64,000 bases of DNA from Gracilariopsis chorda. Lineage: Eukaryota > Rhodophyta > Florideophyceae > Gracilariales > Gracilariaceae. Position 1 is the first letter of the stretch. Each line of letters begins with the position of its first letter. The stretch is taken from the NCBI GenBank assembly GCA_003194525.1, contig NBIV01000011.1, forward strand, positions 372,001-436,000, in the 5' to 3' direction. A model generated the notes under the pieces. It was not told the DNA's origin. It ran no database searches and saw only the letters and a list, made by a program, of their open reading frames with translations. A program made the translations under genes and the position numbers. This document shows, piece by piece, positions 2,776 through 60,511 of this stretch.

Positions 2776-4745
2776 ATGAAGTACATCACAAGCACTGCGA
2801 ATCAACAGCTCGTTTCCAACTCTCTCTTCCACATTCTCCTCGTCCTCTTCACCAGTTTCCTCTTGTGCTGTTCAGCAACCTCTCTGGACAACACCTGCGA
2901 CAGTTACAACCCTGAAGCCAGACTCCGTGAAGCCGGAAAATTAGGAAACTGCCTGAGTGCTCTTAGTGACCCACAGTTCCGGGAGAAGTTTGAAGTTTGT
3001 AAGAAAAGGATTTGTTTCATATACATGTACAACCCAACATTTGTGAGATTTGACCAAAAGCACTTCGAGAGTGCAGAGAATGAGAAGAGAATGCAGCTTC
3101 CCTTCCGATGCAAGTCGTGGCAAAATTGGCACAGGTCGCTGGATGGGATTGCCATTGAACTGATCGAAGAGACGAGCGCTAGGGACGATTACTGCGTGTG
3201 GGCTGGACCGTCTGACTCTTGCACGTGGAACGCCATGGTGGACTACACGGCTGTAGCTGCGAGGCGTGGGTATCAATTCGCAATCGTGGGCCCGTTGCTA
3301 GAGTTTCCACATAGGAAATGCGAACATTTTGCGAGTGGTTCGTGGTTGGATAACACTATGGTCATCATTGGAAAACCCGAGAACATGGCAAGAAGCCCTT
3401 TTGGACAACTTACGGAACCATTTACGAACGGGGCGTGGATTGTTGTTGGAGTGACAGTGGGGATGTTTATAGCTATGTGTCTGCTAATTGTATGGCGGTT
3501 CCATGTGCTTCAAGGCAAGTCGTTGGTGACGGCGTACTTCATTTTTATGGGTGACAGAGCGGCAGCTCTGGCTGCAGGAAAGCAGATCGATGAGAATGAT
3601 CTTCGAAGGGCGGGAAGTATGTTATCGCGGAAGTGCACACAAGATGCGATGAGGTCAAATGATTTGGAGGCAGCAAAATCTACACGCAGTGATGACAGCG
3701 AGGAAAGCGAATCAGCGCAGATGGATAACAAACTGGATCACGTGGTGGGCAACAGCATCGACGAAGAAAGTTGTATCGATGACTCGTTTCTTACCAAGTT
3801 CAGTCTGGCTACGTCGTTGTTTCGAATATCGCTAATTGCGTTCATTGCGATGTTCTCCCTGTTTTACGAGGTAGCAGTGGTGAATTTTCTGTTCCAGCAA
3901 CAACGCATTGAGATCCCGAAGAGCATTGGCCAGCTATCTACATTAGAACTAAGACAATACTGTGTGTTGAAAGATACAGGCTTAGAGAACATCTGGAACA
4001 ATACTGGTAAGTCCTACTGCTTTTTAACACTGTGTAGAGTCGTGTTGAGAGTGACTAACAAGCACATCGGTACTTCACATAGTGAATCCTACTGGAAGGA
4101 AGTTCGACGGATCAGATGAGAAAGAAATTCCATGGAAGCGATGTGTACACGCACAAGAATGTCTAGATTGGGTCCTAGATGATGACAACCCAGTTCAGTT
4201 CTTTGTTTCGTACGAGATGGAAGGAAGATACCTTATGCATTCAAGAACAAATTGCGGTACGTTACCTGACGTCCTACTTCTTTGCTTCAAAGTGACATGG
4301 ATTGCAGCACTTGGGGTTGGAGAACTAACATGCCATTTTGTTTTGGTACAGAGGCTGTAGCGATTTACGAAACGAGAGAAACCCTTCATCAATTTAACAG
4401 TGGGTGGTTATTCAACGAACGAGTTCCTGAGAAACGACGGAGGGAACTGGATCGCGAGTTAATGGCCCTAAGGTTGAATGGGCGGGTATGTATCATTGAT
4501 ATTCTTATGCAACTGATGCCTCCACTGTGAACAGGAGACTGACCTGTGATCTGTTTCTTTTGTGTTGTTCACTGCAGTTGACTCAATTGCATAACGGTGT
4601 TGGGCCGCGTTGTCAGCCGGATGTGATTTCGAGCATTGATTATCTGATCCTTCTACTGCCAGTAATGGTTCTTGTTGTGCCGCCTTTGTTTTTTTCGGCA
4701 TTTGTGGCCTTGTGTGGGAGAAGGAATCGTGTTTCCACAAGCTGA
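2776..4745 (+). CDS. iGluR-like membrane receptor, copy A (4 exons)
   Basis: Predicted exons are 2776-4006, 4083-4256, 4352-4485 and 4578-4745, all with GT/AG borders, giving 568 aa. The layout is: signal peptide (about 1-36); extracellular S1 ligand-binding lobe (about 40-215) with a GIAIEL segment, a WNAMV segment and an Arg before a buried SxW motif; membrane segment M1 (about 219-240); a hydrophilic Ser/Asp/Glu-rich loop (about 262-340); M3 (about 348-372) ending FYEVAVVNFLF; the S2 lobe, with the ELDRELMALRLNG helix typical of iGluR S2; and M4 (about 534-558). This matches S1-M1-M3-S2-M4 of ionotropic glutamate receptors (family knowledge). The N-terminal LIVBP domain is absent, the canonical SYTANLAAF motif of M3 is not kept, and no clear re-entrant pore loop is seen. 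It may be a ligand-binding receptor without channel activity (inference). The paralogue at 24142-26125 supports the exon model. Confidence 0.82.
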
Positions 4746-10290: not shown

Positions 10291-10446
10291 TGTAGCTGTG
10301 TCTAGCTTTGTGTCTTCTCCACTGTCTCCCTCCTCCCATCATGCTGGTGAAGGCAGATCAGCGAGGTCATTTATTTGGTGCCTCCAGTCGGGACGAGTGG
10401 ACTGTAAACCACGTCCCATTTGGTGGCCAGCGTGTCTCCATTCACA
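10291..10446 (-). repeat. 3' LTR of copia element 1
   Basis: This is a 156-bp repeat starting TG and ending CA on the plus strand. It differs from the copy at 17045-17200 at about two positions. A purine-rich tract (minus strand) adjoins its inner end, the same tract as in element 2. Confidence 0.93.
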
Positions 10447-11903
10447 CCGTCCCTCGCAAGCAAGTCATTCGGCGCAGATTGCGACTAATCTACTCTATGA
10501 TTATGAAGCATAATAACCACCATTAAAAACCTGTACCACAGCATAACCTTATAGAAAAATTCCGCAGTCTAGGAAAAGGTATGATACTCTTACTACATCC
10601 AGTACTAATCACCATGAAATATAAGAATCTACTTTCAAAACAAAAATTGGTAGTAGAGAAGCAAGGTTAATTAGAAATCAACATATTCAGATAATACTTA
10701 CAAGTAGCAATACTACTTTGTCAAGCCACAAAGTAATGTCAGTCTTCTGAGCTTCTCAAAGACAACAGGCTTAGTAAATATGTCGGCAGCTTGCACATCA
10801 CTCCTCATTGACTTCATGTCAGTTATCTTGGTCTCCAGCAGCTCTTTTATGTAGTGATGTTTTAGAGCAACCTGCTTGTTCCTTTCCGAGACCTTCGGAC
10901 TCTTCACGATCGACAAAGCAGTCGAACTGTCCGTTGCTATGGATATAGGGTACATTTGAGGTTCATCCTCCAGGACTGATTCGTTGCGTAGTTCCCAGAA
11001 TATTCTACGCAACCACATTAGTGTTTTTCCACAATATGACAGTGCAATGTACTCCGCCTCTCCAGACGACAGAGCAACAAGAGTTTGCTTCTTGGTCGTC
11101 CACATTACAGGTGCTTCGTTCACCTTTATTAGTAATCCTGTCGTAGACTTTCTCGTCTCACGACAACCGGCCCAATCTGAGTCACAGTGTGCCTCCATTG
11201 GTGCTGTGTTATTAGCGGGAAAGAACAAGCAAAGACCCTTTGTACCCTTCAAGTATCTCAGTACTCTTTTCGCATGCCCAAAATGCCTCATGCATGGATC
11301 ATGGACATGCCTTGCCAGCATTGAAGCGGCAAACATGATGTCTGGCCTCGATGAGACGGCTAAGTACATCAAACTTCCTACCAGTTTCCGGTAGCGGTCA
11401 TGTACGCCTGATGGAATACGCAGTTCGTCCTCTCGACGAGCTGTGATGTCACATTGTGACGGCAATGGAGTTCGAACAACGTTGGAGTTAACCAGACCAT
11501 TTTTCAGCAGTATCTTGTCAATATACCTGCTTTGTTGTACCTTTATTCCGTTCTTGTCCCTCGTTATGTCAAATCCAACGAAACGTTTCGCCTCTCCAAG
11601 GACCTTAACCTTAAAGAGGTTCTGCATCTCTGTCTTGAAGTCTTCCAGAAGAGACCGGGAGTTACAAGATGTCAGTAAGTCATCAACGACCACTACGATG
11701 GCCAAGGTTCCGCTGTTGGACTTATATATATATAGTCGGCTATCGGTGTTCGACTGCTTGAATCCCAAGCGCAATTGCTCATTGTGCATGAGAGATCCCC
11801 ATATTTGACCGGCTTGTTTTGCGCCGTATATTGACTTTAGAAGCAAGCATACCTTTCCAGGAACAAATGAGGAACCAGATGCGTTTTGGGGTTGTTCCAT
11901 GAT

Positions 11904-12711
11904 GTGGTGCAATGCCCCAAAGGGGAAAAACACCGAAAGACGTCCGGGATCTTCCTCTCACGAGGTGAACCGAGTTGGGTAGAGCCCTCCCAGAGGTGTC
12001 ACGGCGAAGCCGGTTTGTAAGACCAGGGACACCTGTCGCGACTCGCGCAGGGAGGTGAAGGCGAAGAATCGGTATCCGCGTGAGCGGGGTGTGATCCTCA
12101 GTAGAGGTATGTTTCCACGTAAGTGGGGGTGTGTGAGCGGATGCGCACACGAGGGCCACGGATAGCGGGAGGTGCTACCCTAAAAAGGGGAAAGAGGAGG
12201 GACGAAGTGGGTCGCGAGAGCGACGAGTAGATACGGCAATGCCGGTGAACAGGACTCCCTATACAGGGCGAAACACCAATATGATTGGAACAATTAGTAC
12301 TCCCAATGATGGGTCTCCTTTAGATGCGCAAGGGGGGTGAACTTCCGTACACTACGGTGCTTCCCTCCAAAGAGGAGTTGAGAACACGCGGAGGCGGTAA
12401 AGCTCAGAGCCAATTCCCCAGGTTGGGGTCCCTTGTTGGGGAAGGTTTACTGGTGCGACGGCAGTGCGCCGTCGCACTAAGTACTAGCTTCCCAGAAATG
12501 GGTCTGAAAATAATGAATAAAATTAACTAAAATACTCCACATTCCGTGGCAACATCCACTACTGTGGCCAACCGCCAATTGACCCAAAACCGTGTCCCAC
12601 GTGTCCATACCCACCATTGTGGGGCGTAGTTCATATACACACTACACAACCGATAATATCGGGAAAGCGTTCAAGTACCCAGAATCCCTCCCTGAGGGCG
12701 TTGCACTTCAC
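11904..12711. mobile_element. 808-bp hairpin-array insertion with imperfect TIRs
   Basis: Comparison with the matching part of the second copia element shows that this block is extra DNA. It is bounded by a 5-bp direct repeat ATGAT (11899-11903 and 12712-12716; 6 bp if the adjoining C is counted). Its ends are imperfect inverted repeats: GTGGTGCAATGCCC at the left, GTGAAGTGCAACGCCC read inward from the right. It has no coding capacity. It consists of about 25 short hairpins (4-10-bp stems, 1-7-nt loops) one after another, for example 12037-12047, 12211-12224, 12276-12288, 12345-12357, 12453-12477 (10-bp stem), 12610-12623, 12650-12662 and 12686-12698. It is probably a non-autonomous DNA transposon (inference). 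Superfamily is unknown. Confidence 0.75.
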
Positions 12712-15540
12712 ATGATTAGAGGCTCGTCTAGATCACCGTACAGGTATGCATTGCTAATATCCATAGTCTCTAGTATCAGGCCCTGAGATGAGGCCTTTGC
12801 CAACAAAAGAAGAATGGTTTCAAGACGGGCAACCGGGGCGTACAAGTTGTCTGGGTCGTAATCCAAGTACGGGCGTTGCAGGTCGCCCCGTGCTACGCAA
12901 CGCGCCTTTGGAAGGATACGCGGAGGGTCGGAGCTTAATAATTATGCTAAGAACCTCCATAAGAATGGCAATGGTTTCATGCCAGGTTCTCTATCGATCA
13001 GCTTCCAAGTTCCTCTTTCCACCAACGCATGGTACTCTCTGTCGATTGCTTCTGCCCATCCTGGCATCACTCTGGCTTCTTCAAAGCTCTTGGGGACTCT
13101 GCCATCATCCCCGAGGTCTTTGGAGCGTGAGTGTGCGATAAGGCAATGAGCAAGAGAAGCGTCTAGATGGTCTTCATCATCTTCACCCATAATTTTCTCG
13201 GCTTCGTATCGTCTGAGAGACGAGAAGTCCATAAGGTCTTTGATTGAAGGGAGGGACTCCTTGGTAACCTTGAAATCTGCCTCGCGGCACTTTATTACCT
13301 TTCCCATGGATGGGATGTATATCCTATACAGTGTCCGCGGGCTTTGCATCCCCACGAAGTGTCCAGGAATAGCGCGTGGTAGGAACTTCTTATTTGTGAC
13401 GGTTTCAGGCCTGTATATGAACGCGTGGCCTTCTTGCCCGAACTTCCGTAAGTTTGTGAAGTCCGGTTTTCGTCCGAACCATAAGGTGTAAGGAACCTTC
13501 ATTCCTGCTCGATGATTTGGTAGGCGATTTCTCAAGTAGTTTGCGTGTGAAATGGCTTCTTCCCATAGCTCATGCGGTAGCTTGGAGGCGAACAGGAATT
13601 TTCTAGCCATCTTCCACAAGTCTTGGATGACTTTCTCTGCTACACCGTTCGATTGGTGTGCGTACGGTGGGGTAAACTCTAGTACTATGCCATTTTCCAT
13701 CGCGTATGAGACGAAATCGTCTGACCTATTCTCACCCGCTCCGTCAAGGCGAACGCGGTACATTAGGTTGGGAGGTAGTTCGGTGTCCGCGCGAGCCTTG
13801 TACCAGCGGACAGATTCAAAGAATTGTTTCTTCTTACTTAGAAATTATATTGAGCTTGCCCTTGTGTTGTCGTCAATGAGGACTTGCATATACTTCGATC
13901 CTTGTAAAGAGGTTGGGGTTATGGGTCCAGTGAGGTCGGTGTGCGTTAACTCCAAAGGTCTCTGCACTACCGAGTTTGATTGCCGAAGTGGAGCACGCTT
14001 GGTGCCGGCGTCAATGCACGGAGTGCATATGACGTTGTTGACTTCGTCTGGGGAGATTTTAGGTACCCCTTGACACAAATCAATGCATGTCAAGAGTTTC
14101 TCTCTTTCAGGGTGTCCGAGTTTCTCGTGCCAATCCTTGGCTCTGTTGTCAGGTGCATGTGTTGCAGCTTGTACCTGTGGTGGTGATACGGGGCTCGGTA
14201 GGGGATAGAGTCCGTCCTTCGGGGTGGAGTGTTGTATGACTTGGCCCGTTGTGCGGTCTTTAATTACGAATCCGTTTGAGTATTGCACCTCGACGTAATT
14301 CACAAGGACAGATAAGGATACCAAGTTAGAGTCGAAGGTTGGGGTATGTTTGGCGGGTAACATGAGTCCGGTTCCTAAGGGTAGCTTTATTTTTCCACAG
14401 CCTACGATCTCTGACTGGTGGTCGCAAGTTTTTACGGTTTGCGGAGGTGTTTGGTGATATTCCCAGAACAACGATTTGTCCTTGATGAAAACATGACTAG
14501 CCCCAGAGTCCAGCCATGTTGGGGTTATGTTGTCCTGGTGGAGACTGGCATTAGCTAATGCTATGAATCCGCGGTAGTGGTTCCTTTCTCTCTCGCCGTG
14601 GTGGCGGTTAGCGTTTGGTCGCCCTTGGTTGTGGGCGTCGGTGAAGTTGTTAGAGTCCCAAGCTCGATTGTTATTGCGTCTTTCGCCTTTGTTATGTTTA
14701 TTATTATTGGAGTTTTTATTGTTGGGCTGTTGTTGGTTTTTATTTTTCTTGCGCCAACATTCGGCCCTGATGTGGCCTATGCGTCCACAATTCCAACATA
14801 CAACTCCCTTCTTGTTCCCTTTTGCATGCTGCTTGCGTCGGGTTGTAGTCTTCTTCGCAGCGGGGTAAGGGTGAATGCCATCTTTCTTGGCTTCTGTAGC
14901 CTTCGTGGTATATGTCGATGCCCGATGAACACGTTGGTCCATTTCGGATCGCACAAGCGAAACGACTTGATCGTATTCCATGTTGGTTGCGTCCGCCAAT
15001 AATGTGATTGCCATTAGTGAGTCTGGCAAGGTACGGAGCAGAGTCGCAGTTCGCTCCTTTTCCGTGAGTGGGTCACCCAGTCTAGCAAGTTCTAAGTAGG
15101 TTGTCTCCAACTCGAGTAAATGTCTCTGTACGTCGTCGCCATCCTTGAATGTCAAGGTGCTTAGCTTTTGGCGGAGGTTCAATTTGGATTGTATGTTGTC
15201 CTTCTTATATGTAGACTCGAGTTTATTCCATACCTCCAAAGCAGAGCAGTGTTCTCTTTCGAGTAGTTCCGAAACTGCGACGATCGGCTGTGTGTCAAGG
15301 TTTTGGACGATGGCCGATCTTGCCTTTCGATCGGCGTCGTCCCATCTCTTTCGAGCTGCAGCGGGTCCTTCATTTGGACGAGGTTCCGAAAGCACGAATA
15401 ATGATTGGAGGGAGTGTATGAGATCCCTAATGTATATGTGCCAAGTGTAGTAATCGGCGCCCCCTTTTAGACGGGGTATAGGTTTATTTTCTTGGTAAGT
15501 CTCAGAGTCCATCGCGGAGTATCACTCAACGCGAGACTAA

Positions 15541-16080
15541 AGGAGACTGGCAGATAGAATTATTCACCGGTCCCCTACCGGTTGAGGGATCCTTCTACTA
15601 CTCTTGCGTAGCCGGGTCCAATGGCAGGAGATACTATATCCGGTTCCCTAAAGGTCAGACCTCTGGCTCCGAGTAAGACTCTCTCGGTGAGATGCGATTT
15701 CAGCGGCCCGTCCAAGTTCTGCACAATCCAGAACGAGGGTGCGTGCAACCTACGGAATGTCCAGGAGAGGTTACTAACAACGTGATATGTGTTCACCAGT
15801 TGGCCTCCTCTGATTCCTTACGGCTACTTGCGCGGCGATCTTGCTCCTTGAAACGTCCTTGTCTTCACTAAGGTCCGGGCCGAACGACGAGACACCCTGT
15901 CCCCTTACGAACAGCTACACTCACCCCAGCTGAGCCAGTTATACGGCAAGTGCGCTATCCGCAGGCTTAGTTCAAGTCCCCAGTCGATTCCCAACCGGTA
16001 TTCGGCTTGCGAACCTTAGCTCAGCCAAGTGCTAACTTCCCTGAAGGGTTAACAGTGGCGGAGGCCTTATTCAGGACTTT
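15541..16080 (-). other. Conserved structured leader of copia element 1
   Basis: This part of the untranslated leader upstream of gag is clearly similar to 21690-22260 in element 2, although the LTRs differ. It is rich in small hairpins. Two of them change in both arms between the elements while keeping pairing: 15716-15734 versus 21889-21907, and 15652-15662 versus 21825-21835. That pattern favours a selected RNA structure, possibly for packaging, dimerisation or translation (inference). Confidence 0.55.
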
Positions 16081-16360
16081 ATATAATAGTTCCGGTTCAA
16101 CGTCTGTGTTCGTGGTCCAATGATGAAGGCGGTTATGCGGAGCCTGCAGTAACTGCGATGTGTTGCCACTAGAAGCTTCAGGTGATCGGTCCAGACCACA
16201 AGCAAGGGGCAAGGGTTGTTCAACGACACGGTGGCTTTCAAGAAGCTTCTAGTGCGCACGCTCTAACGCAACGCCGGATACGGGGGGGGGGGGGGTTTGG
16301 CAGCGACTCAACAATGGGCGCAGGCGGGGGAAGGTTGTCCAGCGTGTAGAAGGCGGAGTG

Positions 16361-16815
16361 TGCACGGGCTGCCGGGGGGGGGGGAAGATTGTTTGAGAGC
16401 GCCACACCAGTAGGCCCAAGTCTTGCGCGGAGAACGCGGAATGTGCACGGGCTGCCGGGGGGGGGGAGTTGTTTGAGAGGGCCACAACAGTAGGCCCAAG
16501 TCTTGCGCGGAGAACGCGGAATGTGCACGGGCTGCCGGGGGGGAGAAGGTTGTTCGCAGTGTGTGTGGTTGTCCAGAGTGTGCAAGGGCTGCCGGGGGGC
16601 GGAAGATGTTTTGGGAGCGTAGCACGAGTAGGCGCAAGTCCAGCGCGGAGAGGGCGGAGTGTTCACGGGCTGCCGGGGGGCGGAAGACGGTTTGGGAGCG
16701 CAACACGAGTAGGCGCAAGTCCAGCGCGGAGAGGGCGGAGTATGCACGGGCTGCCGAGGGGCGGGAGATGGTCTGGGAGCGCAAAACGAGTAGGCGCAAG
16801 TCCGGGAAAAAGTGG
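16361..16815. repeat. Minisatellite, about 80-bp units, in the copia 1 leader
   Basis: Six units start at about 16361, 16444, 16524, 16581, 16662 and 16743. Each opens with a variant of TGCACGGGCTGCCGGGG, followed by a G-run and a GTAGGCGCAAGTC-like segment. The spacing is 80-83 bp except for one shortened unit of 57 bp. It lies wholly inside the leader of the first copia element and is not shared with element 2. Confidence 0.85.
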
Positions 16816-17044: not shown

Positions 17045-17200
17045 TGTAGCTGTGTCTAGCTTTGTGTCTTCTCCACTGTCTCCCTCCTCCCATCATGCTG
17101 GTGAAGGCAGATCAGCGAGGTCATTTATTTGGTGCCTCCAGTCGGGACGAGTGGACTGTAAACCACGTCCCAACTGGTGGCCAGCGTGTCTCCATTCACA
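17045..17200 (-). repeat. 5' LTR of copia element 1
   Basis: This is the 156-bp partner of 10291-10446, about 1.3% different. Its outer side is followed by the target duplication GCTGG. Its inner side abuts the leader, where a primer-binding site would be expected. Confidence 0.93.
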
Positions 17201-17307: not shown

Positions 17308-17443
17308 TGTAACTGTTTCTCTCTTCTTGCCCCCTTCCATCCAAAGGGGTAAAGAAGGGGGCCCTTTATTTATACTGTTGGAACGTGTGGCTCGTGCCGC
17401 ACGTTCCAATCAGTGGACCAGAACAATTCTGCGTCCGTCTACA
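17308..17443 (-). repeat. 3' LTR of copia element 2
   Basis: This 136-bp repeat is paired with 22951-23086. Target duplication GATAT lies on its outer side and the polypurine tract on its inner side. Confidence 0.93.
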
Positions 17444-17682: not shown

Positions 17683-20600
17683 TTACTTAATGGATGTTTT
17701 GTTCCTAAGCCCACATAATACTGTGAGAACTTTCAATCGTTCCACCGGGAGTGACTTTGTGAATATATCAGCGGCTTGCGTGTCTGTCCTTATTGGCTTT
17801 ATGTCAATGACTTCAGTCTCAACAAGCTCTTTGATATGGTGATGTTTTAGAGCTATGTGCTTGTTCCTTTCAGAGACTCTCGGATTCTTAGCTATCGACA
17901 GCGCAGTCGAGCTATCCGAATATGTAGATATTGGATACATGTCCGGTTCATCGTCAAGGACCTTTTCAGCGCCCAGCTCCCAGAACAGTCTTCGGAGCCA
18001 GGTCACAATTTTCCCACAGTACGACATGGCCACATATTCAGCTTCACCAGACGACAGGGTAATTAGAGATTGCTTCTTAGTCGTCCACATAATTGGTGCT
18101 TCGTTCACCTTTATTATTACTCCCGTCGTGGACTTCCGCGTTTCGCGGCATCCAGCCCAATCAGCGTCACAATACGCTTCCATTGGAGCCGTAGTGTTAG
18201 AGGGATAGAACAAGCCAAGACCCTTCGTACCTTTGAGGTATCGTAAAACTCTCTTCGCTAGTCCAACATGCCGCAAGCATGGGTCATGGACTTGCCTTGC
18301 CAGCATCGAGGCTGCGAACATGATGTCAGGCCTGGAGTTCACGGCCAAATACATCAAACAACCTACCAACTTCCGGTATCGGTTGTGTGTTCCTGTAGAC
18401 ACTGCGCGTTCTTCATCCTGGCGGCTGGTCAGATCTTCCTTGGTGGGCAGGGGTGTTTGAGAAACGTTACAGTTCTCAAGCCCGTTCTCTTTTATTATCT
18501 TATCGATATAACGAGTCTGGGTGACCATTATGCCCTGGTCGTTTCGCTCGATCTGTAGTCCCACAAATGACTTTGCCTCACCAAGGAGCTTAACCTTGAA
18601 CAGGTTTGTCATCTCAGCCTTGAAGTCCTGGAGTAGACTATATGAGTTGCAGGCCATAAGAATATCGTCCACGACTATGACGAGTATTAGGGTACCACTC
18701 TTGGACGAGTACAGGTATAGCCGACTGTCGGTGGTAGACTGTCTGAATCCCAAGCGAATCAACTCGCTGTGCATCAATGAGCCCCATATGTGTCCGGCTT
18801 GTTTCGCTCCATATATCGATTTTAGGAGTAAGCAGACCTTTCCTGGGACAAAGGAGAATCCAGAGGACTTGGTTGGTTGCTCCATGATAAGAGGCTCATC
18901 TAGATCACCATAGAGATACGCGTTGCTCACATCCATGGTCTCTAAGATCAAGCCTTGTGCTGCGGCTTTTGTGAAGACCATGCAGATGGTTTCGAGTCTC
19001 GCAACCGGTGCGTATAGGGTCTCAGGGTCAAAATCGATGTAGGGGCGTTGCATGTCGCCCCGTGCAACGCAACGTGCCTTAGGTAGAATACGAGGTGGGT
19101 CTTCGCTAAGGAGTTTGGCAATGAACCTCCAAAGGAATGGTAAAGGTTTCATCCCCGGTTTCCTGTCTACAAGCCTCCATGTCCCTCTTTCTACCAAGGC
19201 ATTGTACTCCCTGTCGATAGCTTCGGCCCATCCTCTCATCTTCCGCGCTTCGTCGAAGTTCTTTGGGACTCTGCCGTCATCCCTAAGACCTTCGGAGCGT
19301 GAGAAGGATACGAGACAGTGTGCCAGCGATGCATCGAGGTGTTCCTCGGAATCTTCATCCATGTTCACCTCGGCATGCTGCCTTCGGAGGGAAGAGAAGT
19401 CGATCAGGTCTTTGAAGGATGGTAGTTTGTCCTTGCTTACTTTGAAGTCTGCCTTGCGGCACTTTATTACTTTATCAGTCGATGGGATGTATACCCTGTA
19501 CAAAGTGCGGGGACTTTGTATACCAACAAAGTTACCAGGAAGTGCCCGGGGTAGTAGCTTCTTATTCGGTGCGGTGTCTGATCTGTATATGAACGCATGT
19601 CCTGGCTGTCCAAGCTTTAATAGGTTGGTGAAGTCAGGCTTCTCACCAAACCACAGGGTGTACGGGACTCTCATGTCTACCCGTTGGTTTGGTAGTCGAT
19701 TCCTAAGATATTTTGCGTGAGAGATTGCCTCTTCCCAGAGTTCCTGTGGTAACTTGGACTCAAACAGGAAGATGCGGGCAACTTTCCAAAGATCTTGAAT
19801 GGTCTTCTCCGCGACGCCATTTGATTGATGCGCATATGGTGGGGTGAATTCAAGTATGATGCCATTCTCCATCGCATATGTGACGAAGTCATCGGAGCGA
19901 TTCTCACCCGCCCCGTCAAGGCGAACGCGGTACATTCGATTCGGAGGCACCTCGTTTTCCGCGCGAGCCTTGTACCAACGAATGGATTGGAAGAATTGTG
20001 TCTTTTTACTAAGGAAGTAAATGGCACTCGCCCTTGTCCTGTCGTCGATAAGGACTTGCATATATCGCGATCCTTGCAGCGAAGGTGGCGTGATGGGTCC
20101 GCTGAGATCGGTGTGAGTGAGTTCGAGGTTCCTGCTCACAGTTTTTTCAATTTTTTGCAGTGGAGCCCGTTTTGTTCCTGCTTGTATGCATGGGTTGCAT
20201 ATGATGTTGCGTACCTCCTCAATTGAGAATCGTGGTACCCCGTGAGATGTCTCAACGCACTTGAGTAGTTTGTCTCGGCCAGGGTGGCCGAGTTTCTCAT
20301 GCCAGTCGTGAGGGTTGTCACCAATCTGTCGCATCGCCATGTGAGCCATAGGGGAGGGTAAGGGGTTGGGAAGTGGGTAGAGTCCGTGTCTTGGCCTTGA
20401 TGTGAAGAATACCTCTCCTGTGCTCTTGTGTTTTATAATGAAGCTGGTTTCTGCCTCAGTGGAAAATTCGACGTCTCCTTGTGATGCCAGAGTGGAGAGG
20501 GAGATTAGGTTGGAGTCGAAGCTTGGGGTATGCTTTGCTGATAACATCACACCGTTTGCGCCGAAAGGTAACTTTATTTTCCCAAGTCCCACGCTGTCGG

Positions 20601-21681
20601 ATGTATTATCGCAAGTATTCACGGTTTGTGGTGGGGTTGTGTGATATTCCCAGAACAGGGACTTGTCTTTGATGAAGACGTGACTTGCTCCTGAGTCCAA
20701 CCATGTCGGTGTATGATGCTCGGAATGTACGCTGGCGTTGGCGATCGCTACGAATCCGCGGTGGTTTTGGTTTTGCTTGTTGTGGTTGTTGTTGTTGTTG
20801 CGGTTGGCATCTTGTCGATGGTTTCTTTGTTGGTTAGTCCCGTTTCGGTTTGAATCCCACGAGCGGTTTGTGTTATTGCTCTTGTTTTTACCGTGTTGAG
20901 TGGTTTCCGAGGACTTGTTTTTGGTTTTCCTCCAGCATTCGGAACGAATGTGTCCGATACGCCCGCAGTTCCAACATTCTACGCCTCTTTTCTTTGGCTT
21001 TGTGTGCTGTCTTTTGCCTTGTGAAGACTTCTTTGCGGCCGGGTATGGGTGTGTTCGGTCGTTTGGTTTCGATGCCGTAGTGTTGTTTGGGCGATGAGCC
21101 CTACGGTCCATTTCTGATCGCACTAGGGATACCACCTGGTCGTATTCCATATTTGTAGCGTCAGCCAGTAGTGTGATGGCCATCAGTGACTCTGGAAGGG
21201 AACGAAGTAACGTGGCGGTCCTTTCCTTATCTGTCACTGGGTTGCCTTGGCGTGCGAGTTCTAAGAAAGTGGTTTCAAGGGTAATGAGGTGATTTTGTAT
21301 GTCCTCACCGTCTTTATATGCCATGGTGCTAAGCTTTTGGCGAAGGTTCAACTTTGACTGTATGTTGTCCTTCTTATATGTGGCCTCTAGTTTGGTCCAC
21401 ACTTCCAAAGCGGAGCAGTACTCCCTTCCCAGGAGTTCTGATACAGCGACAATCGGCTCTGTTCCAAGGTTCTGTACGATCGCGGAGCGTGCTTTGCGAT
21501 CGGCATCGTCCCAGCGCTTTCGGGTTGCTGCGCTTCCCTCTGTGGGTCGAGGTTCGGTGAGGACGAAAAGGGATTGCGATGAGTGCATGAGATCCCTTAC
21601 GTAGATGCGCCAAGTGTAGTAGTCGGCGCTTCCCTGTAGTCGGGATATTCTTTTATTGTCGTATTCTCGCTCTGTGTCCAT
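17683..21681 (-). CDS. copia gag-pol polyprotein (element 2)
   Basis: One 1332-residue frame carries all Ty1/copia parts in order: gag, a CCHC knuckle (CWNCGRIGHIRSECW), an aspartic protease (DSGAS), an integrase with the GPI and DDR motifs, a reverse transcriptase with a VVDD core and an RNase H ending with SSGEAEYVAM. Gag and pol share one frame, as in many copia elements. It belongs to the mobile element and not to the host. Confidence 0.93.
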   Translation of the reverse strand: MDTEREYDNKRISRLQGSADYYTWRIYVRDLMHSSQSLFVLTEPRPTEGSAATRKRWDDADRKARSAIVQNLGTEPIVAVSELLGREYCSALEVWTKLEATYKKDNIQSKLNLRQKLSTMAYKDGEDIQNHLITLETTFLELARQGNPVTDKERTATLLRSLPESLMAITLLADATNMEYDQVVSLVRSEMDRRAHRPNNTTASKPNDRTHPYPAAKKSSQGKRQHTKPKKRGVECWNCGRIGHIRSECWRKTKNKSSETTQHGKNKSNNTNRSWDSNRNGTNQQRNHRQDANRNNNNNHNKQNQNHRGFVAIANASVHSEHHTPTWLDSGASHVFIKDKSLFWEYHTTPPQTVNTCDNTSDSVGLGKIKLPFGANGVMLSAKHTPSFDSNLISLSTLASQGDVEFSTEAETSFIIKHKSTGEVFFTSRPRHGLYPLPNPLPSPMAHMAMRQIGDNPHDWHEKLGHPGRDKLLKCVETSHGVPRFSIEEVRNIICNPCIQAGTKRAPLQKIEKTVSRNLELTHTDLSGPITPPSLQGSRYMQVLIDDRTRASAIYFLSKKTQFFQSIRWYKARAENEVPPNRMYRVRLDGAGENRSDDFVTYAMENGIILEFTPPYAHQSNGVAEKTIQDLWKVARIFLFESKLPQELWEEAISHAKYLRNRLPNQRVDMRVPYTLWFGEKPDFTNLLKLGQPGHAFIYRSDTAPNKKLLPRALPGNFVGIQSPRTLYRVYIPSTDKVIKCRKADFKVSKDKLPSFKDLIDFSSLRRQHAEVNMDEDSEEHLDASLAHCLVSFSRSEGLRDDGRVPKNFDEARKMRGWAEAIDREYNALVERGTWRLVDRKPGMKPLPFLWRFIAKLLSEDPPRILPKARCVARGDMQRPYIDFDPETLYAPVARLETICMVFTKAAAQGLILETMDVSNAYLYGDLDEPLIMEQPTKSSGFSFVPGKVCLLLKSIYGAKQAGHIWGSLMHSELIRLGFRQSTTDSRLYLYSSKSGTLILVIVVDDILMACNSYSLLQDFKAEMTNLFKVKLLGEAKSFVGLQIERNDQGIMVTQTRYIDKIIKENGLENCNVSQTPLPTKEDLTSRQDEERAVSTGTHNRYRKLVGCLMYLAVNSRPDIMFAASMLARQVHDPCLRHVGLAKRVLRYLKGTKGLGLFYPSNTTAPMEAYCDADWAGCRETRKSTTGVIIKVNEAPIMWTTKKQSLITLSSGEAEYVAMSYCGKIVTWLRRLFWELGAEKVLDDEPDMYPISTYSDSSTALSIAKNPRVSERNKHIALKHHHIKELVETEVIDIKPIRTDTQAADIFTKSLPVERLKVLTVLCGLRNKTSIK

Positions 21682-21689
21682 CGCGGAGT

Positions 21690-22330
21690 GTTCTCGACGC
21701 GAGGCTTATCCAGAGGGGCAGATAGTTTGTATACTTCACCGGTCCCCTACCGGGCGAGGGATCCTTCTGCCACTCTTTGAGTAGCCGGGCCCACTGACAA
21801 GAGATACTATCTCTGGTACCCTAAGGGTCAGACCCCTGGCTCCGAGTTAGACTCTCTCGGTGAGGTGCGTTTTCAGCTGCCTGTCTATGTCCTGCGCAAT
21901 CCAGGACTAAGGTGCGTGTAACGTACGGATCGTCCAGGGAATGGATAATGACCAGTAGATATGCCTTCACCAATACACTCCCTCTAGATCCTTGCGGCTG
22001 CTTGCGCGGCGAGATGTACTCCGTATAAAGTTCTTGTCCTTACTAAGGTCCGGGCCGAACGACAAGACACCCTGTCCCCGAACGAGCGCAACACTCACCC
22101 CAGCGGAGCCGGTTATACGGCAAATGCGCAACCCGCCGGTTAAGTTCAAGTCCCCAGTCGATTCCCAACCGGTACTCGGCTTGCGAATCTTAGCACGGCC
22201 AAGTGCTAACTTCTCTTCCTGGGTAATAGTGGCGGAGGCCCTGTTCGGGACTTTTGTTCTCTCGTCTTATGTGTCGAACTTCCCTTACGGGGTAATCGGT
22301 GGCGAGGCCTTACTCAGGTCTTACGGTTGG
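21690..22330 (-). other. Conserved structured leader of copia element 2
   Basis: This is the counterpart of 15541-16080. Long stretches are shared, such as the CTAAGGTCCGGGCCGAACGA segment, and the order of small hairpins is the same. See the leader entry for element 1 for the two compensatory stem changes. Further inward (22350-22590) it gives way to G-runs that are not shared. Confidence 0.55.
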
Positions 22331-22950: not shown

Positions 22951-23086
22951 TGTAACTGTTTTTCTCTTCTTGCCCCCTTCCATCCAAAGGGGTACAGAAG
23001 GGGGCCCTTTATTTATACTGTTGGAACGTGTGGCTCGTGCCGCACGTTCCAATCAGTGGACCAGAACAATTCTGCGTCCGTCTACA
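22951..23086 (-). repeat. 5' LTR of copia element 2
   Basis: This is the 136-bp partner of 17308-17443, about 1.5% different, with target duplication GATAT immediately outside. Confidence 0.93.
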
Positions 23087-24141: not shown

Positions 24142-26125
24142 ATGTTCTCCTTAATCGACGAAACAAACTACTTCAATGTACCAGTCATGTTGGTTATGTC
24201 GAATGTACAGATGCGCGCTGCCAAACTTCTGATTCCATTGATACTTCTTCAAACCGCATTGGTGCCTCATTATGTTTTGGCACGCTCCGTAGCTCAAGAG
24301 GATCCGTGTGCTTCATACAACTCCACGGAGAGTCTGAAGACATCAAATGTTGGCAGAGGGTGTTTGTCTGCTCTATCTGACCCCGAGTTCGCCCATTACT
24401 TCAACGTTTGCAAGACAAATGTTTGCTTCATCTTTAAATGGGAGGGGCCCATGGTCATGTTCGACAAATCAATTGTCTTCGAGGAAGAGAACAAGACAAG
24501 ATTTCAAATTCCCTTCAAATGTGGACAGCCATCAGATTGGCATCCATCCCTTGCTGGATATGCTATCGAGTTGCATAAACGAACCAGTACCCGAAATGAG
24601 TATTGCGTATGGGCAGGGAATCCATCTGAGTGTACTTGGAATGGTTTGGTTGACTTCACTGGCGCAATGGCTAGACGGGGATATCAATTCGCTATCACTG
24701 GACCCATGTTAGAAACAGCTCAGAGGAAATGCGAACATTATAGTAGCGGACCATGGTTAGACAATCCAATGATTATCATCGGTAGAAATGAACCTCCAGC
24801 GATACGGCTTGGAGACCAAATATCTCAACTCGTCAAGCCGTTCTCCCCTGGGACATGGATCACAATTTGTGTGGTGCTGCTTCTAATTGTCATTCTTTCT
24901 TTCATCCTTGTGAACGTTTTTCATGTTTCCGGTTCAAACTCGCTCTTCACAGCATATATGCTACTAATTGGAGATCGAGAACAGGCTCTGCTATTCGGTA
25001 GATCTCATGGCAAAAGAAAAAAAGGGCGACGCAAATCATGCTTTAACATGTTCTGGCTTTCCAGACGATCAACAAAAAATCCTAATGCATCCGAAATCCG
25101 TCAATCTAACGCTTCCTCGCGAAGTGAAAGTGAAGTGTGTAGCATTGATCTTGTTGCAGAAACGGAACAATACAGAAGTCAGTACAATGTAGCAACGTCT
25201 CTGTTTCGGTTTGCTCTGATTTGTTTTGCAGGGCTTTTCTTTTTGTTCTATGAAGCTGCGGTGGTTCAATTTCTTTTCCATCAGCGAAGAATAGAGATTA
25301 CCAAAAGTGTGACCACTTTGTCGGACGAGGAGCTGCGCAGTTTTGCTGTCATGGGAGATTCAGCTCTAGAAGATATATGGCTGGCAACAGGTAAGACAGA
25401 CGACGACTTCAGGCATTCCAAAAAGAGCGGCAAGAATGAACTAACACTTTTGTAACTGTGAACCACGAAGTGGACCCTGGAGGCTCACGGGTAGACTGGA
25501 AAAACAAGATGAACTTGCCCTGGAAACGATGTTCTAAAACAGAAGACTGTATTCGAATGGTGAAGGATGGAACAGATGGTGTGCGGTTTACAGTTACCTA
25601 CGAAGTAGAAGGAAGCTTCTTGATACATGAATTATCAGATTGCGGTACGAAATTGGGAACAAACTTCTTCTTCTTCAACCGGAGTACACGGTAATCCGAT
25701 CTTACAGAAACACACACTGACCGCTTTGTTCTCTTCACCTTTCGATTTTCTTTGATTCTTGATGTTTAGATCATCTGACAAGGTTTGATACAACTGAGAG
25801 CCTTCACTATTTTAACGGGGGATGGCTCATGAATTCCCTTGTCGACCACGAAAAACGTCGGCAGTTTGATCGTGAACTTGTTGCATTGAGAATCAACGGG
25901 AGTGTAAGTTTGAGTTTCCTTTTGCTTGTCTGTCGACGGTCGGTAACACAAAATGAAACTAACATTCGAAGCGAAATCCAGGTTTCACAATTACTGAACC
26001 AATACGCTGATCATTATTGCAAGAGGGATAACATCGTGAGCATTGGGCCTATCATTCTGGTCATTCCAATCATAGTTCTTGTCTTGCCTCCTCTCATTCT
26101 TTCAGTTGCGGTCGTATTTTGGTAA
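24142..26125 (+). CDS. iGluR-like membrane receptor, copy B (4 exons)
   Basis: Predicted exons are 24142-25390, 25471-25644, 25770-25903 and 25982-26125, giving 566 aa from the first Met. A start at 24187 or 24211 gives a cleaner signal peptide (MRAAKLLIPLILLQTALVP). It shares the architecture of the gene at 2776-4745: signal peptide, S1 lobe (WNGLVDF, GPMLETAQRKCEH), M1 with VVLLLIVILSFILV, a conserved TAY...GDR...AL block just after M1, a basic Ser-rich loop of about 75 residues, M3 ending FYEAAVVQFLF, S2 with FDRELVALRINGS, then M4. Exons 2 and 3 have the same lengths as in copy A (174 and 134 nt) and the same phases. The loop between M1 and M3 is unrelated in sequence to that of copy A. 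It is probably a ligand-binding receptor of unknown ligand. Canonical pore motifs are not apparent. Confidence 0.82.
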
Positions 26126-41163: not shown

Positions 41164-44100
41164 TCAACGCTCTAACGACTGTGGCAATGATCCTGGCTGA
41201 AGAGAATCTAGGATGCCGGAAGACGAGGCTGGTGCATTGTTTGTTGGCCCGTCCCGGGAATCGCTCCGTGCTGCAAGCGGTCTCATATCTTCCAACGTGG
41301 AGCTCCGTACGTGAGTTGCACTTCCAGGTAAAGCAATCTCTGTAATATTCTCGATCAGCAACGCAACGTCACCCGAACTCCGTAGGTAGTACCTAGCATT
41401 ACTTGGCTTCACACCAACTGTTGTAGTGAAGAGTTTGCTGTCTGTTGCAGCCACCTCCTTTGACAACACCTCAAACATGTCCTCGTCAGTTCTGTCATCT
41501 CCGCAGCACAGAATGAAGTCTGGGGTTTGCCCAAGGTCGTCTAGTATTCTGCGAACCATCGTTCCTTTGTTAACATCCGACAGCCGCACCTGTAACCACC
41601 CTTGCCCATTGACGACTTGAACCTCGAATGGGGTCATCAAGGTCTCAACGTGGTCATGCATTTCTTTAGATTGCCAGTTACCAAATTCTGGATCAGCTGC
41701 TAGGTAGTGCCATACAAGCCCTGCTGACTTCTCCTCAATGTAAGACCCATCTGTTCTCTCTGTGTAAACCTGCATCAAGTTCTTCACAATTTCAATCCAC
41801 GAAAGATCGCAGTCGGGCGCTGTGGTTTCAAACTCTGTAGAACCGGGCTTCTTGTAATAGAAACCGTGTTCCGCAGCTATTCCCAAAGACTGCATTTGTG
41901 GAACATGGAAGCCCTCGGCGTCCACACCACGTCCCGATAAGATTATCACGGTGCAGTTCTCTTGCTGCGCGAGCAGGTTAAGGTTGCGCAGAACGTCATC
42001 CGTCGGACGCGCCCATTTATGCGCCAGATACGACGTTTCAGCGTCAATTGGGGTAAGAGTTCCGTCGTAGTCAAACAAGAACAACTTGCGACGAGACTCT
42101 CTGAAAGCTTTGACTACATCGCGTGAGTTGAGGAGTTTGAAGTCTCGGAATTCCAGTCGTCGGAATCCTCGCCCGCGACTCAATCCTAGACGAACAACTT
42201 CTTGCACTTGCTCTTCAGCTTCACTCAAATCACGTAGGAAAGATTGGCACCACAGCACAGAACTGTGGCCCTCTACGTACTTGCGATCGGCTTCATGCTT
42301 CCGGAAAATCTCCCCTGGTTTCGAGTCGCTGTTCTGAATAACGTTGTCAATAGCATCCCGAACCTCATGTATGTCCCACGGATTCACGCGCACAGCTGAT
42401 GAAAGTGCTCGAGAGCAACCAGTGAACTCAGAGAGGATGAGTTGGCCGTTCGAGTGTGGTGTTGCAACAAGGTACTCATAGGGAATAAGGTTAAGACCAT
42501 CGCGAATTGGAGTAATAAGCATAGCGTTACAAACGGAGTAAATAGCGATACGTTCGTCAAAGCTAATAGATTCTTCAATGTAAACAACAGGCTTATGAGC
42601 TCGCGTTCCGAATTTGGCATTAATTCTGTCAACGAGTTCTCTCACTTCACTTCTGACCGTCTCTTCGACGCGAGCGGCCTTCGGAAGCGCAACTTGAATC
42701 AGTACAACTCTTGATCGCACTCGGTCAGACGCACTCTCCAAGTAGTTCTCGAAGGCAATAAGTTTGAGCGCGATACCTTTTATAACATCCAGATCGTCAA
42801 CGGCACCCAAGACAATCTTCGAATTGTAGCGGGTCTCATACTCTGCAATTCTTTGACGCACGTGCGGCATAGTGAGCGTGTCACTGAAGCGCTGCGGATC
42901 AACGCCAATATGACTGACACGAATAGTAACATGACGACCTTCGTACTCAATACCAAGATTTCCTCGCTTGGCCTCATGCTCAAGGTTGAGCAACCGAACA
43001 CAACAAGACAGAAAATGTCTGGCATAATCAAAGAGATGGAAACCGAGCATAGACGAACTGAGCAGGCCTTTGAGAAGTTCATTTCGAACTGGCAGCATAC
43101 GGAAGATTTCAGAACTAGGCCATGGGATATGCAAATAAAAGCCGACCCGTACTCCACTGATCTTGATTCGCAGGTAATAAGGCAAGAGCATCAAGTGATA
43201 ATCATGAACCCATATGAGATGACCATCATAATGCTCAACAATCTTTTGGCTAAACATTCGATTAACGCGTTGGTACGCATACCAAGTGGTGTCGTCAAAG
43301 CGTTTTGTTTTGCGATTGGTATCGCTGGCATTGTTGATCATATGAAACGCTGGCCACAGCACGTTTTTGCAAAAGCCCTGATAGAATTTACGCATGACAT
43401 CTGCGGTGAGGAAGACAGGGACACAGCTGAATTTTTCGAGCAAGGTAGAAGAGATGTGGTCACGATCGGAGAGTGGGACGGGTTCCGAGGAGTTGAGGAT
43501 GCCAACCCACAAGGGTTTTATGTTACGCTGTTCCAAACCCCTTCTGAGCCCCGTTGAGGTGAGATAAAGTGCGTCATCGTCCCAAGCAAAGGACCAGTGA
43601 CCGTTTGCGTCACGTTCGGCGATGATTGGGAGACGGTAGAGGGCAATGATGACAGAATCAGGTTCCGCGCTCGAGGAACTGATGCTAGCGCTGTACTTGG
43701 CATCATCCAGAGAATCTTCCGGCTTGGGGGATATGGAATGGATAGATCGCGGGGTGGTGCGAATACGGTTTGGATCATCGTTGTTTAAAATGCCAAATTG
43801 GCCCTCATCCACAAGCATGGTTGAGGCGGGGATGGTTTGAATGACGCGACGTTCCTCAAAAGGTTCTGGAATAGGGAGAGTGTCGTTGGGGGGATAGTCT
43901 TCTTGACCGTGTACGGAGAGGTCTCGAACGGCATCTTCTAGGGTGGGATCGGGGGTTGCTCCGGGGACACAATAGTATTTGTAGTTGTAGGTACGGTTTG
44001 CAGGGAGAGTTAGACTGATGCGCCAGGTGGGGAATTCTCGCACGCTGGTTGTGAGTTCAATTCCGCGGACGGGGTCTCCGCCGCCGAGGTCCTCGTGGTC

Positions 44101-44187
44101 TCCGACGAGGCGCAGGCGCTGGCCGAACTGAGTCTCGCAGTGAACGACGAAGGTGACGCGCGTCTCCTCGGCGGAGATACGCACCAT
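41164..44187 (-). CDS. CBM20-TPS-TPP fusion (trehalose- or floridoside-phosphate type)
   Basis: This intronless gene encodes 1007 aa. A CBM20 starch-binding domain (about residues 8-95: RVTFVVHCETQFGQRLRLVG, TWRISLTLP, YNYKYYCV) precedes a GT20 synthase domain (about 190-660, with WVHDYHLMLLPYYLR and GFHLFDYARHFL) and a HAD phosphatase domain (about 695-960, with FDYDGTLTPID and GDDRTDEDMFE). The phosphatase Asp residues are intact, so both activities are plausible. In plants such class II proteins make or sense trehalose-6-phosphate. In red algae related proteins have been assigned to isofloridoside-phosphate synthesis from UDP-galactose and glycerol-3-phosphate (family knowledge), so the sugar donor and acceptor are not settled by sequence alone. 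The CBM20 suggests targeting to floridean starch in the cytosol. Confidence 0.9.
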   Translation of the reverse strand: MVRISAEETRVTFVVHCETQFGQRLRLVGDHEDLGGGDPVRGIELTTSVREFPTWRISLTLPANRTYNYKYYCVPGATPDPTLEDAVRDLSVHGQEDYPPNDTLPIPEPFEERRVIQTIPASTMLVDEGQFGILNNDDPNRIRTTPRSIHSISPKPEDSLDDAKYSASISSSSAEPDSVIIALYRLPIIAERDANGHWSFAWDDDALYLTSTGLRRGLEQRNIKPLWVGILNSSEPVPLSDRDHISSTLLEKFSCVPVFLTADVMRKFYQGFCKNVLWPAFHMINNASDTNRKTKRFDDTTWYAYQRVNRMFSQKIVEHYDGHLIWVHDYHLMLLPYYLRIKISGVRVGFYLHIPWPSSEIFRMLPVRNELLKGLLSSSMLGFHLFDYARHFLSCCVRLLNLEHEAKRGNLGIEYEGRHVTIRVSHIGVDPQRFSDTLTMPHVRQRIAEYETRYNSKIVLGAVDDLDVIKGIALKLIAFENYLESASDRVRSRVVLIQVALPKAARVEETVRSEVRELVDRINAKFGTRAHKPVVYIEESISFDERIAIYSVCNAMLITPIRDGLNLIPYEYLVATPHSNGQLILSEFTGCSRALSSAVRVNPWDIHEVRDAIDNVIQNSDSKPGEIFRKHEADRKYVEGHSSVLWCQSFLRDLSEAEEQVQEVVRLGLSRGRGFRRLEFRDFKLLNSRDVVKAFRESRRKLFLFDYDGTLTPIDAETSYLAHKWARPTDDVLRNLNLLAQQENCTVIILSGRGVDAEGFHVPQMQSLGIAAEHGFYYKKPGSTEFETTAPDCDLSWIEIVKNLMQVYTERTDGSYIEEKSAGLVWHYLAADPEFGNWQSKEMHDHVETLMTPFEVQVVNGQGWLQVRLSDVNKGTMVRRILDDLGQTPDFILCCGDDRTDEDMFEVLSKEVAATDSKLFTTTVGVKPSNARYYLRSSGDVALLIENITEIALPGSATHVRSSTLEDMRPLAARSDSRDGPTNNAPASSSGILDSLQPGSLPQSLER

Positions 44188-46054: not shown

Positions 46055-46174
46055 ACATTCGGCCACATCAAGTTGGCATGCGCCGGATCCCATCTCGAAC
46101 TCCGAAGCTAAGTCACTTTGAGCCGGGCTAGTACTGACATGAGGGATCGGTCTGGAATCCCCGGTGCCGAATGT
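46055..46174 (+). rRNA. 5S ribosomal RNA
   Basis: This 120-nt gene has the eukaryotic 5S layout. The ends pair to form helix I (ACATTCGGC at 46055-46063 with GCCGAATGT at 46166-46174). The GATCCCATCTCGAACTCCGA stretch of loops B and C is present, as are AAGCTAAG for the internal promoter box A and a GATCGGTCTGGAATCCC segment near the C box. Transcribed by RNA polymerase III, it enters the large ribosomal subunit. It is a single copy here, not in an rDNA repeat or visible tandem array. Confidence 0.96.
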
Positions 46175-46176
46175 TC

Positions 46177-59056: not shown

Positions 59057-60511
59057 CTATGTATCAAACTGCCCGGCCGTGAAACCCGGATCGATATCAT
59101 CGGGCAAACATCTAAACCGCGGAAGACGAACAGCCATGAAATACAGGTCCGGTCGTGCACTCAAGCCAAGATGAGGAGACGCAACAAGATCTCCCGTAGC
59201 ACGTGAGCCAGCTTTCTTCTGAAACACAACGGGCAATGCACGAATGCACTCGAACGGGGTGTGAAACTGTCGTACTCGATTGGACACCGACGTCATGAGG
59301 TCCCAATCTGAACGACGCAGCTGACGTATGTACAACGTGCAATCAGCCATCTGTTGCTTATGCTGCGACATGGGACGGAGCGCGGCTTCAAATACGCGCT
59401 GAGCGCTCAATTGCGGTGCTTCTGTATCCAGGGTGGATATCGGTGCAGCATGCATTACAAAACGATTATCCCAGTACACGGGCTGTTGCTCATGCAACGG
59501 GGCGCACGCATAGTTACCTCTCAATCGGGTGGAAAAGAGGCTTGGCGTGTCATGATCCGGTTCCCTGGTGAGCATCATCAAATGGTCATTACCAGTTCGC
59601 AATCGTCTCGCAAAGCGACCAGTGGCCGGACGCAACACGACGCCAGCAGCAGTTCTTCCCTTTGGCAGGGCCCGCATGTCACCGTCGGCTGACGGTTTGA
59701 AGACGGCCTCGCAGAGACGATTGACCTGTGGTTCATCCAACGAAAGCGGTTTTGCGGAGCCTGAAACGTGCAGACACATTCGTTGCATAGCATGGATGAC
59801 GGCCAGTCTTGAAGCGCGTCCGGAGTTGAATTTTTCGTAAAGCATGTCGGTTCGGGCGACGATGTAGCCCCAGTGACTGGTTTCAAGCACGCTATTGCGC
59901 AGCAAGTCATCGGATTGGTGTTGCAGTAATTGGAGGGAAGATTTCTTCTGATCGGCGAGTTGCAAAGCGGCTGGAATGAGTTGAGGAGGCATGAAGGTAG
60001 GATCGGCGGTTCGATTGTATTCGGGTGGGACGTTTTCGTGTACGGTTGAGCAAATTGTGGCGTGATCAACGGTTGAAAGGGGCTCATGGAAGGTGAGCGT
60101 TCCTTTCGGGAGCATTTCAATTCCAGTGGACGCATCTCCGCAGATCGGATTGGCGGAGATTGAAGTGACAGCGGTTACAGCTCGTTCAAGCCGGGTGGTG
60201 CCAACGGCGAGGTGACTGACTTGGTGATGAATAGCAGCGGCTGCATAAGGGCGCAATGGAGCTCGGTTGTCGGGGGTTATGGTGTGAATGAGGGATTGAC
60301 ATGATGGATTGGCCGCGCGAAGCAGGTGCGCTTCTCGTTGTGGGGCGAAGAGAAGCGGCTTGTTGTCCGATCGATGGTGGAGAAGGAGGTTGGCCAGGGC
60401 GACATCGCATGCGCGCCCATCGCGCAGAACGACGGCATATCTGGCGGACTGCGGGAGCGTTTTGAGGAGGAGAGTGAGCGCTTGCGCTGCTCGCAATGCG
60501 GGCGGCTTCAT
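59057..60511 (-). CDS. Unknown protein, weakly TilS-like C-terminal half
   Basis: The protein has 484 aa from the ATG at 60511. The start MKPPALRAAQALTLLLKTLP, basic and hydroxylated after it, could be a targeting peptide. The middle contains GYIVARTDMLYEKFNSGRAS. The C-terminal half has MRALPKGRTAAGVVLRPATG, LMMLTREPD and VYWDNRFVMH in that order. This order loosely recalls the region after the PP-loop in eukaryotic tRNA(Ile)-lysidine synthetase-like proteins, but the catalytic SGGxDS loop is not seen. If related, the protein has lost or never had the ATP site (inference). It may equally be an unrelated lineage-specific protein. Confidence 0.55.
   Translation of the reverse strand: MKPPALRAAQALTLLLKTLPQSARYAVVLRDGRACDVALANLLLHHRSDNKPLLFAPQREAHLLRAANPSCQSLIHTITPDNRAPLRPYAAAAIHHQVSHLAVGTTRLERAVTAVTSISANPICGDASTGIEMLPKGTLTFHEPLSTVDHATICSTVHENVPPEYNRTADPTFMPPQLIPAALQLADQKKSSLQLLQHQSDDLLRNSVLETSHWGYIVARTDMLYEKFNSGRASRLAVIHAMQRMCLHVSGSAKPLSLDEPQVNRLCEAVFKPSADGDMRALPKGRTAAGVVLRPATGRFARRLRTGNDHLMMLTREPDHDTPSLFSTRLRGNYACAPLHEQQPVYWDNRFVMHAAPISTLDTEAPQLSAQRVFEAALRPMSQHKQQMADCTLYIRQLRRSDWDLMTSVSNRVRQFHTPFECIRALPVVFQKKAGSRATGDLVASPHLGLSARPDLYFMAVRLPRFRCLPDDIDPGFTAGQFDT

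Follow-up and report, generated by a model that had tools for sequence, protein, structure and literature searches.

A candidate non-autonomous DNA element with an array of CC...GG hairpin units inside a Ty1/copia copy of Gracilariopsis chorda

Introduction

Two Ty1/copia elements adjoin each other, both on the minus strand, in the 64-kb stretch of Gracilariopsis chorda DNA analysed here (hereafter the window). One of them is degenerate, and its reverse-transcriptase region is interrupted by an 808-bp insertion at 11904-12711. A previous reading of this DNA from its letters alone (the sequence-only reading) had described the insertion as a tandem array of small hairpins. What kind of DNA is this insertion, and what accounts for its hairpins?

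The window carries eukaryotic nuclear genes, namely those for a UBE2O-like ubiquitin-conjugating enzyme, calreticulin, a GNT-I glycosyltransferase and an elongation-factor-2-like GTPase. The only Rfam match in the window is a 5S rRNA at 46055-46175. A single open frame of 1007 aa at 41164-44187 combines a CBM20 starch-binding domain, a trehalose-6-phosphate synthase and a trehalose phosphatase. Two further frames, 2776-4119 (447 aa) and 24142-25455 (437 aa), contain a DNA stretch of 66% identity (3187-3371 and 24598-24782). Neither frame has a Pfam match, and they may belong to a dispersed gene family.

The insertion and its empty site

The interrupted element, the insertion and the target-site copies are as follows.

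10713..15512, minus strand: interrupted host element, a Ty1/copia gag-pol copy with in-frame stops (copia-copia alignment)
11904..12711 (11904-12710 for a 6-bp duplication), no strand assigned: whole inserted element (break in the alignment; empty site of the second copia)
11899..11903, no strand assigned: left target-site copy ATGAT (CATGAT with 11898) (flank comparison and copia alignment)
12712..12716, no strand assigned: right target-site copy ATGAT (CATGAT with 12711) (flank comparison and copia alignment)

According to the blastn comparison of the window with itself, 12711-16080 corresponds to 18883-22254 of the second copia with 72.1% identity, and 10770-11903 corresponds to 17755-18888 with 71.8% identity. 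Both aligned pieces end at the insertion (11903 and 12711), and they overlap by 6 bases in the uninterrupted copia. The 6 bases are CATGAT, and CATGAT is also located on each flank of the insertion. The second copia contains the empty site. The alignment break and the empty site indicate that the sequence-only reading had placed the 808-bp insertion correctly.

The target duplication is exact, and its length may be 5 bp, the value given in the sequence-only reading, or 6 bp. With 5 bp (ATGAT), the element covers 11904-12711 and has the ends GTG...CAC; with 6 bp (CATGAT), it covers 11904-12710. Base 12711 is compatible with both. The longest stop-free run in the six frames of the insertion is 90 codons; by open frames, the insertion is non-coding and no transposase gene is seen inside it.

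Other repeats are present around the two copia elements. The second copia has a long open frame (17683-21681, 1332 aa) and is bracketed by direct repeats of 136 bp (17308-17443 and 22951-23086), which are 98.5% identical. These repeats are probably its LTRs. Read in this way, their high identity points to a young copy. A 156-bp stretch is 98.7% identical between 10291-10446 and 17045-17200, as against about 72% for the neighbouring copias, and may be a young repeat in its own right. At 16337-16803, close to the end of the interrupted copia that carries gag, a unit of about 80 bp is repeated in tandem.

Terminal inverted repeats

The ends of the insertion have the following features.

11904..11917, plus strand: left terminal inverted repeat, GTGGTGCAATGCCC (end alignment)
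12696..12711, minus strand: right terminal inverted repeat, GTGAAGTGCAACGCCC (end alignment)
11915..11925, no strand assigned: left terminal hairpin CCCC-AAA-GGGG, overlapping the inverted repeat (hairpin listing)
12686..12698, no strand assigned: right terminal hairpin CCCTC-CCT-GAGGG, overlapping the inverted repeat (hairpin listing)

The two ends are aligned as GTG--GTGCAATGCCC and GTGAAGTGCAACGCCC, and the first 16 positions contain a single mismatch and a single gap of 2 nt. The imperfect inverted repeats described in the sequence-only reading are thus present. The score of this end pair is reached by 14 of 20000 shuffled pairs and by 18 of 20000 window pairs taken at the same distance, so that the inverted repeats taken alone are only moderately beyond chance. 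The exact target duplication together with the inverted repeats indicates that these are the ends of a mobile element. At both ends, the inverted repeat passes directly into a hairpin. The end word GTGCAATGCCC, with one mismatch allowed, is also found at 59231 in the window, and 9 of 100 shuffles match as often.

The hairpin array

Between the ends, the insertion is filled with small hairpins.

11915..12698, no strand assigned: small-hairpin array, with 31 hairpins listed, 25 by a stricter C-first count and 19 of the CC...GG type (hairpin listings and shuffles)
12453..12477, no strand assigned: single long hairpin with a 10-bp stem and a 5-nt loop (hairpin listing)
12503..12536, no strand assigned: AT-rich spacer (5 G/C of 34) without a listed hairpin (sequence reading and hairpin listing)

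The insertion contains 27 hairpins with stems of 4 bp or more and loops of 3-6 nt, compared with 9.3 +/- 2.8 in 100 dinucleotide shuffles (maximum 18) and with 10.1 +/- 3.1 in windows of 808 bp, some few of them overlapping the insertion. With stems of at least 5 bp, 8 hairpins were counted versus 3.7 in the shuffles (maximum 9), and with stems of at least 6 bp, 1 versus 1.2. As the longer stems are much less enriched and the excess lies in 4-bp stems, the hairpin design is narrow. A list filtered on the G+C content of the stem, in which weaker 4-bp stems are dropped and loops of up to 10 nt are allowed, contains 31 hairpins and covers 51% of the insertion. Their stems are 4 bp in 21 cases, 5 bp in nine and 10 bp in one. 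The unit length is 11-13 bp in 23 of the 31, most units having 4-5 bp stems and 3-5 nt loops, and the mean spacing from centre to centre is 25.7 bp.

The sequence-only reading had counted about 25 small hairpins running from end to end, with stems of 4-10 bp. The array is far above chance, and the shuffled control proposed there for the hairpin number came out in its favour. The wording 'end to end' is slightly strong with 12503-12536 empty, and the range of stem lengths was loose.

The units follow a rule that is absent from the sequence-only reading. Separate units of the form CC...GG number 19 in the insertion and 32 in the other 63 kb of the window, the latter corresponding to 0.41 per 808 bp. 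In 2000 shuffles within 60-bp blocks, the mean was 0.65 and the maximum 4. CC-N(7-9)-GG with two further inner pairs was observed 21 times against about 1.1 expected, and the reversed layout GG...CC, with two inner pairs and the same gaps, was not observed in the insertion. The match of the inner bases in all 19 units follows from the way in which the units were chosen. The unbiased evidence for pairing is that 21 of the 50 CC-N(7-9)-GG places in the insertion, some of which are one-base shifts of each other, are fully paired inside, compared with about 1.1 of 18 in 300 shuffles. Nine different inner stem dinucleotides occur among the 19 units, each paired by its own partner. The first base of the hairpin units is C in 25, T in four, A in one and G in none. 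Since a hairpin read from the opposite strand keeps its first base, this holds on both strands. The rule drawn from these results is a strong one: a unit is about 12 bp long, starts with C (mostly CC) and ends with G. No comparable hairpin array was found elsewhere in the window, where the densest 300-bp stretches contain 2 CC units. Dinucleotide shuffles and 60-bp block shuffles rule out chance or base composition as the source of the array.

Most units share no common sequence and the loops are nearly all different, so that pairing is the common feature, in agreement with the sequence-only reading, which called the hairpins unlike in sequence but alike in design. Short internal near-copies do occur: 12301-12316 and 12490-12505 have the same stem and a different loop, and 11906-11928 and 12171-12193 are 74% alike. 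The word GGTGAA, found four times on the plus strand (equalled by 1 of 500 shuffles), was dropped as post hoc, because a 6-mer occurring four times is seen in 196 of 500 shuffles.

Proposed mechanism

We read the insertion, with the target duplication, inverted ends and pairing rule observed here, as a non-autonomous terminal-inverted-repeat DNA element whose interior is under a pairing rule and whose units are read as hairpins. We give this tentative reading a probability of about 0.38. A DDE-type enzyme supplied from elsewhere would insert the element and duplicate 5 or 6 bp of the target. The interior is a string of units of 11-13 bp, pyrimidine-first and mostly CC...GG, foldable as hairpins on either strand. 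Most likely, the units would be recognized as hairpins once the strands separate; the protein that binds them in single-stranded DNA could be the transposase or one involved in replication. The outer CC/GG would be the part read by the protein, and the inner pairs would be needed for pairing alone. The first unit on each side is located inside the inverted repeat, and repeat plus hairpin may form the terminal recognition site.

Hairpin binding on single-stranded DNA is preferred because it explains why the outer bases are fixed, why the inner ones vary but pair, why the units are so uniform in length and why there is a hairpin at each end. On the other side, a single copy would look the same whether its pairing is due to selection or to origin. 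We know of no transposase that reads many such hairpins, and stems of 4 bp should not extrude from a DNA duplex unless its strands are separated. No transposase or partner element was found in the 64-kb window or in the viral, prokaryote, phage and plasmid collections.

Folding and alternative explanations

The insertion folds better than shuffled sequence, and the folding-energy comparison suggested in the sequence-only reading therefore agrees with the hairpin counts. The z value is -5.1 for DNA (20 shuffles), and -5.2 (plus strand) and -4.3 (minus strand) for RNA (40 shuffles each). With pairs limited to 20 nt, the RNA values are -4.6 (plus) and -5.3 (minus) (40 shuffles each), and with a span of 100 the excess is weaker (-1.5 and -2.7). 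Nearly all single units are predicted to fold alone on both strands, with a mean of about -2.7 kcal/mol as DNA and -4.4 kcal/mol as RNA; 2 of the 31 (12317-12333 and 12626-12645) fold weakly or do not fold.

The array is not completely strand-symmetric, which, like the two weakly folding units, counts against the proposed reading. In the 200-nt windows across 12000-12299, folding is stronger on the minus strand (z -4.7 and -4.6) than on the plus strand (-2.8 and -2.5). On the plus strand, loops and linkers are G-rich to the left of the spacer 12503-12536 and C-rich to the right, so that the GC skew changes from positive to negative. This switch at the spacer suggests that two halves of the insertion face each other.

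When G-T pairs are allowed, 27 hairpins are counted against 22.6 +/- 2.6 in shuffles, and when A-C pairs are allowed, the counterpart of G-U in the opposite strand, the count is 32 versus 25.1 +/- 2.7. The excess is weakened in both cases. The excess with A-C is slightly above that with G-T, and wobble pairs of neither strand are clearly favoured. As the excess drops with either tolerance, the signal is of the Watson-Crick type and not that of a single strand. G-U pairs are expected in an RNA that functions on one strand. The weak wobble excess therefore indicates that DNA or both strands are constrained, or that the insertion is young and undiverged.

Alternatively, the structure may be needed in RNA. 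Both strands would be transcribed or copied, the hairpins would prevent the strands from annealing or would shield the RNA, and the product would be integrated in trans, for example by a copia integrase. Pairing on both strands with avoidance of G-U is what such a double constraint requires, both strands fold better than shuffles as RNA, and the left-hand loops are rich in A on the plus strand (41 A, 19 T). A 5-bp target duplication fits copia integration and is compatible with a copia integrase acting in trans. In the passages concerned of a study of diatom elements, a 5-bp target repeat is described beside copia (PMC2806351). Avoidance of a duplex, however, predicts neither the CC-first rule nor the narrow unit length. 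The insertion is not a known structured RNA family, as it has no Rfam match at the gathering score (best 12.3 bits, cut-off 38; 911 bases, E up to 5). We consider the RNA explanation rather unlikely.

It is unlikely, too, that the palindromes are a by-product of growth, with repeated insertion or templated synthesis of palindromic units of about 12 bp and no present function. The internal near-copies are in line with such growth, and perfect stems would still be expected in a young insertion. Nested palindrome arrays are known from the organelle DNA of Volvox carteri, according to the relevant parts of PMC2670323. In those parts, however, the nuclear palindrome copies of Volvox are described as often degenerate, with stem mismatches (PMC2670323). 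Most units here lack a common sequence, unlike a spreading repeat, and by reasoning, snap-back synthesis would not end outermost at CC/GG.

A solo LTR or another remnant of an LTR retrotransposon is very improbable: the 5-bp duplication, the length of 808 bp and a TG...CA one base inside the left end would agree with it, and, in the part of PMC2806351 on LTR ends, 3 of 26 diatom families have LTRs without TG/CA, but on the left the TG...CA does not directly abut the duplication (left end GTG, right end CAC), the inverted repeat is longer than that of a usual LTR, the copia repeats of the window, such as 17308-17443/22951-23086, are short and different, and the best blastn match of the insertion to the rest of the window has an E value of only 0.15. 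An intron was rejected, since the minus (gene) strand begins with GTGAAG but has no AG at the opposite end.

Comparison with known systems

The insertion is short and non-coding, with inverted ends and a target duplication, as are MITEs and other non-autonomous terminal-inverted-repeat transposons. The testable defining features of such transposons (repeats at the exact ends, a duplication with an empty site, and no transposase gene) fit the insertion. In contrast to MITEs, it is made up internally of dissimilar small hairpins that follow the CC...GG rule, and its ends and 5-6 bp duplication are not matched to a named superfamily. Bacterial REP/BIME hairpin arrays are moved by REP-associated transposases. 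They resemble the insertion in the proposed sense that hairpins are read in single-stranded DNA, but REP/BIME hairpins are alike in sequence, have no target duplication and are bacterial.

The short palindromic repeats in Volvox carteri organelles are also many packed small hairpins with 3-5 nt loops in noncoding DNA, as the passages describing them state (PMC2670323). The same passages give common sequence motifs, fixed loops (TAAA/TTTA) and stems of 5-29 nt, whereas the insertion has 4-5 bp stems and differing loops. Moreover, unlike the Volvox palindromes as presented there, the array is enclosed between inverted repeats, with a target duplication outside them. A common palindrome sequence or loop motif of the Volvox type was not found among the units of the insertion, which have short partial internal repeats alone. 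The LIMP palindromes of Lobosphaera incisa mitochondria are likewise proposed to act as hairpins or cruciforms; in the portion of the source that deals with them, they consist of one repeated pentanucleotide with an invariant loop, unlike the insertion (PMC4524435).

Relatives were searched for in several collections. Searched with the copia protein, viral contigs yielded 11 pattern matches but no relative. With patterns of the ends and of three hairpins, 12, 0, 16, 2 and 1 stretches were retrieved from viral contigs and another 3 from prokaryote genomes, which is at chance level. In all 34 returned loci, scanned often as part of a contig, the densest 400 bp contain at most 5 CC units, compared with 11 in the insertion. 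Distant blastn of the insertion gave 4 phage records (about 37 bases, E 0.8) and 1 plasmid record (29 bases, E 0.2), all chance-like. Eukaryotic DNA is scarce in all of these collections, so that they say little on how common this type of insertion is. Searches of open full-text literature, judged mostly from titles and the first lines of abstracts, showed no described element with this layout.

Implications

The insertion might represent a class of mobile DNA in which structure, and not sequence, is inherited and selected. About 25 hairpin sites would be read through their shape and an outer CC/GG clamp, and the stems would drift while both strands still fold. We regard this wider proposal as doubtful. 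If copies show compensatory changes, the insertion would be a eukaryotic DNA transposon with sites defined by folding. A transposase or host factor would then act on hairpins, or selection would act on both transcripts, and such elements would be missed by homology-based annotation.
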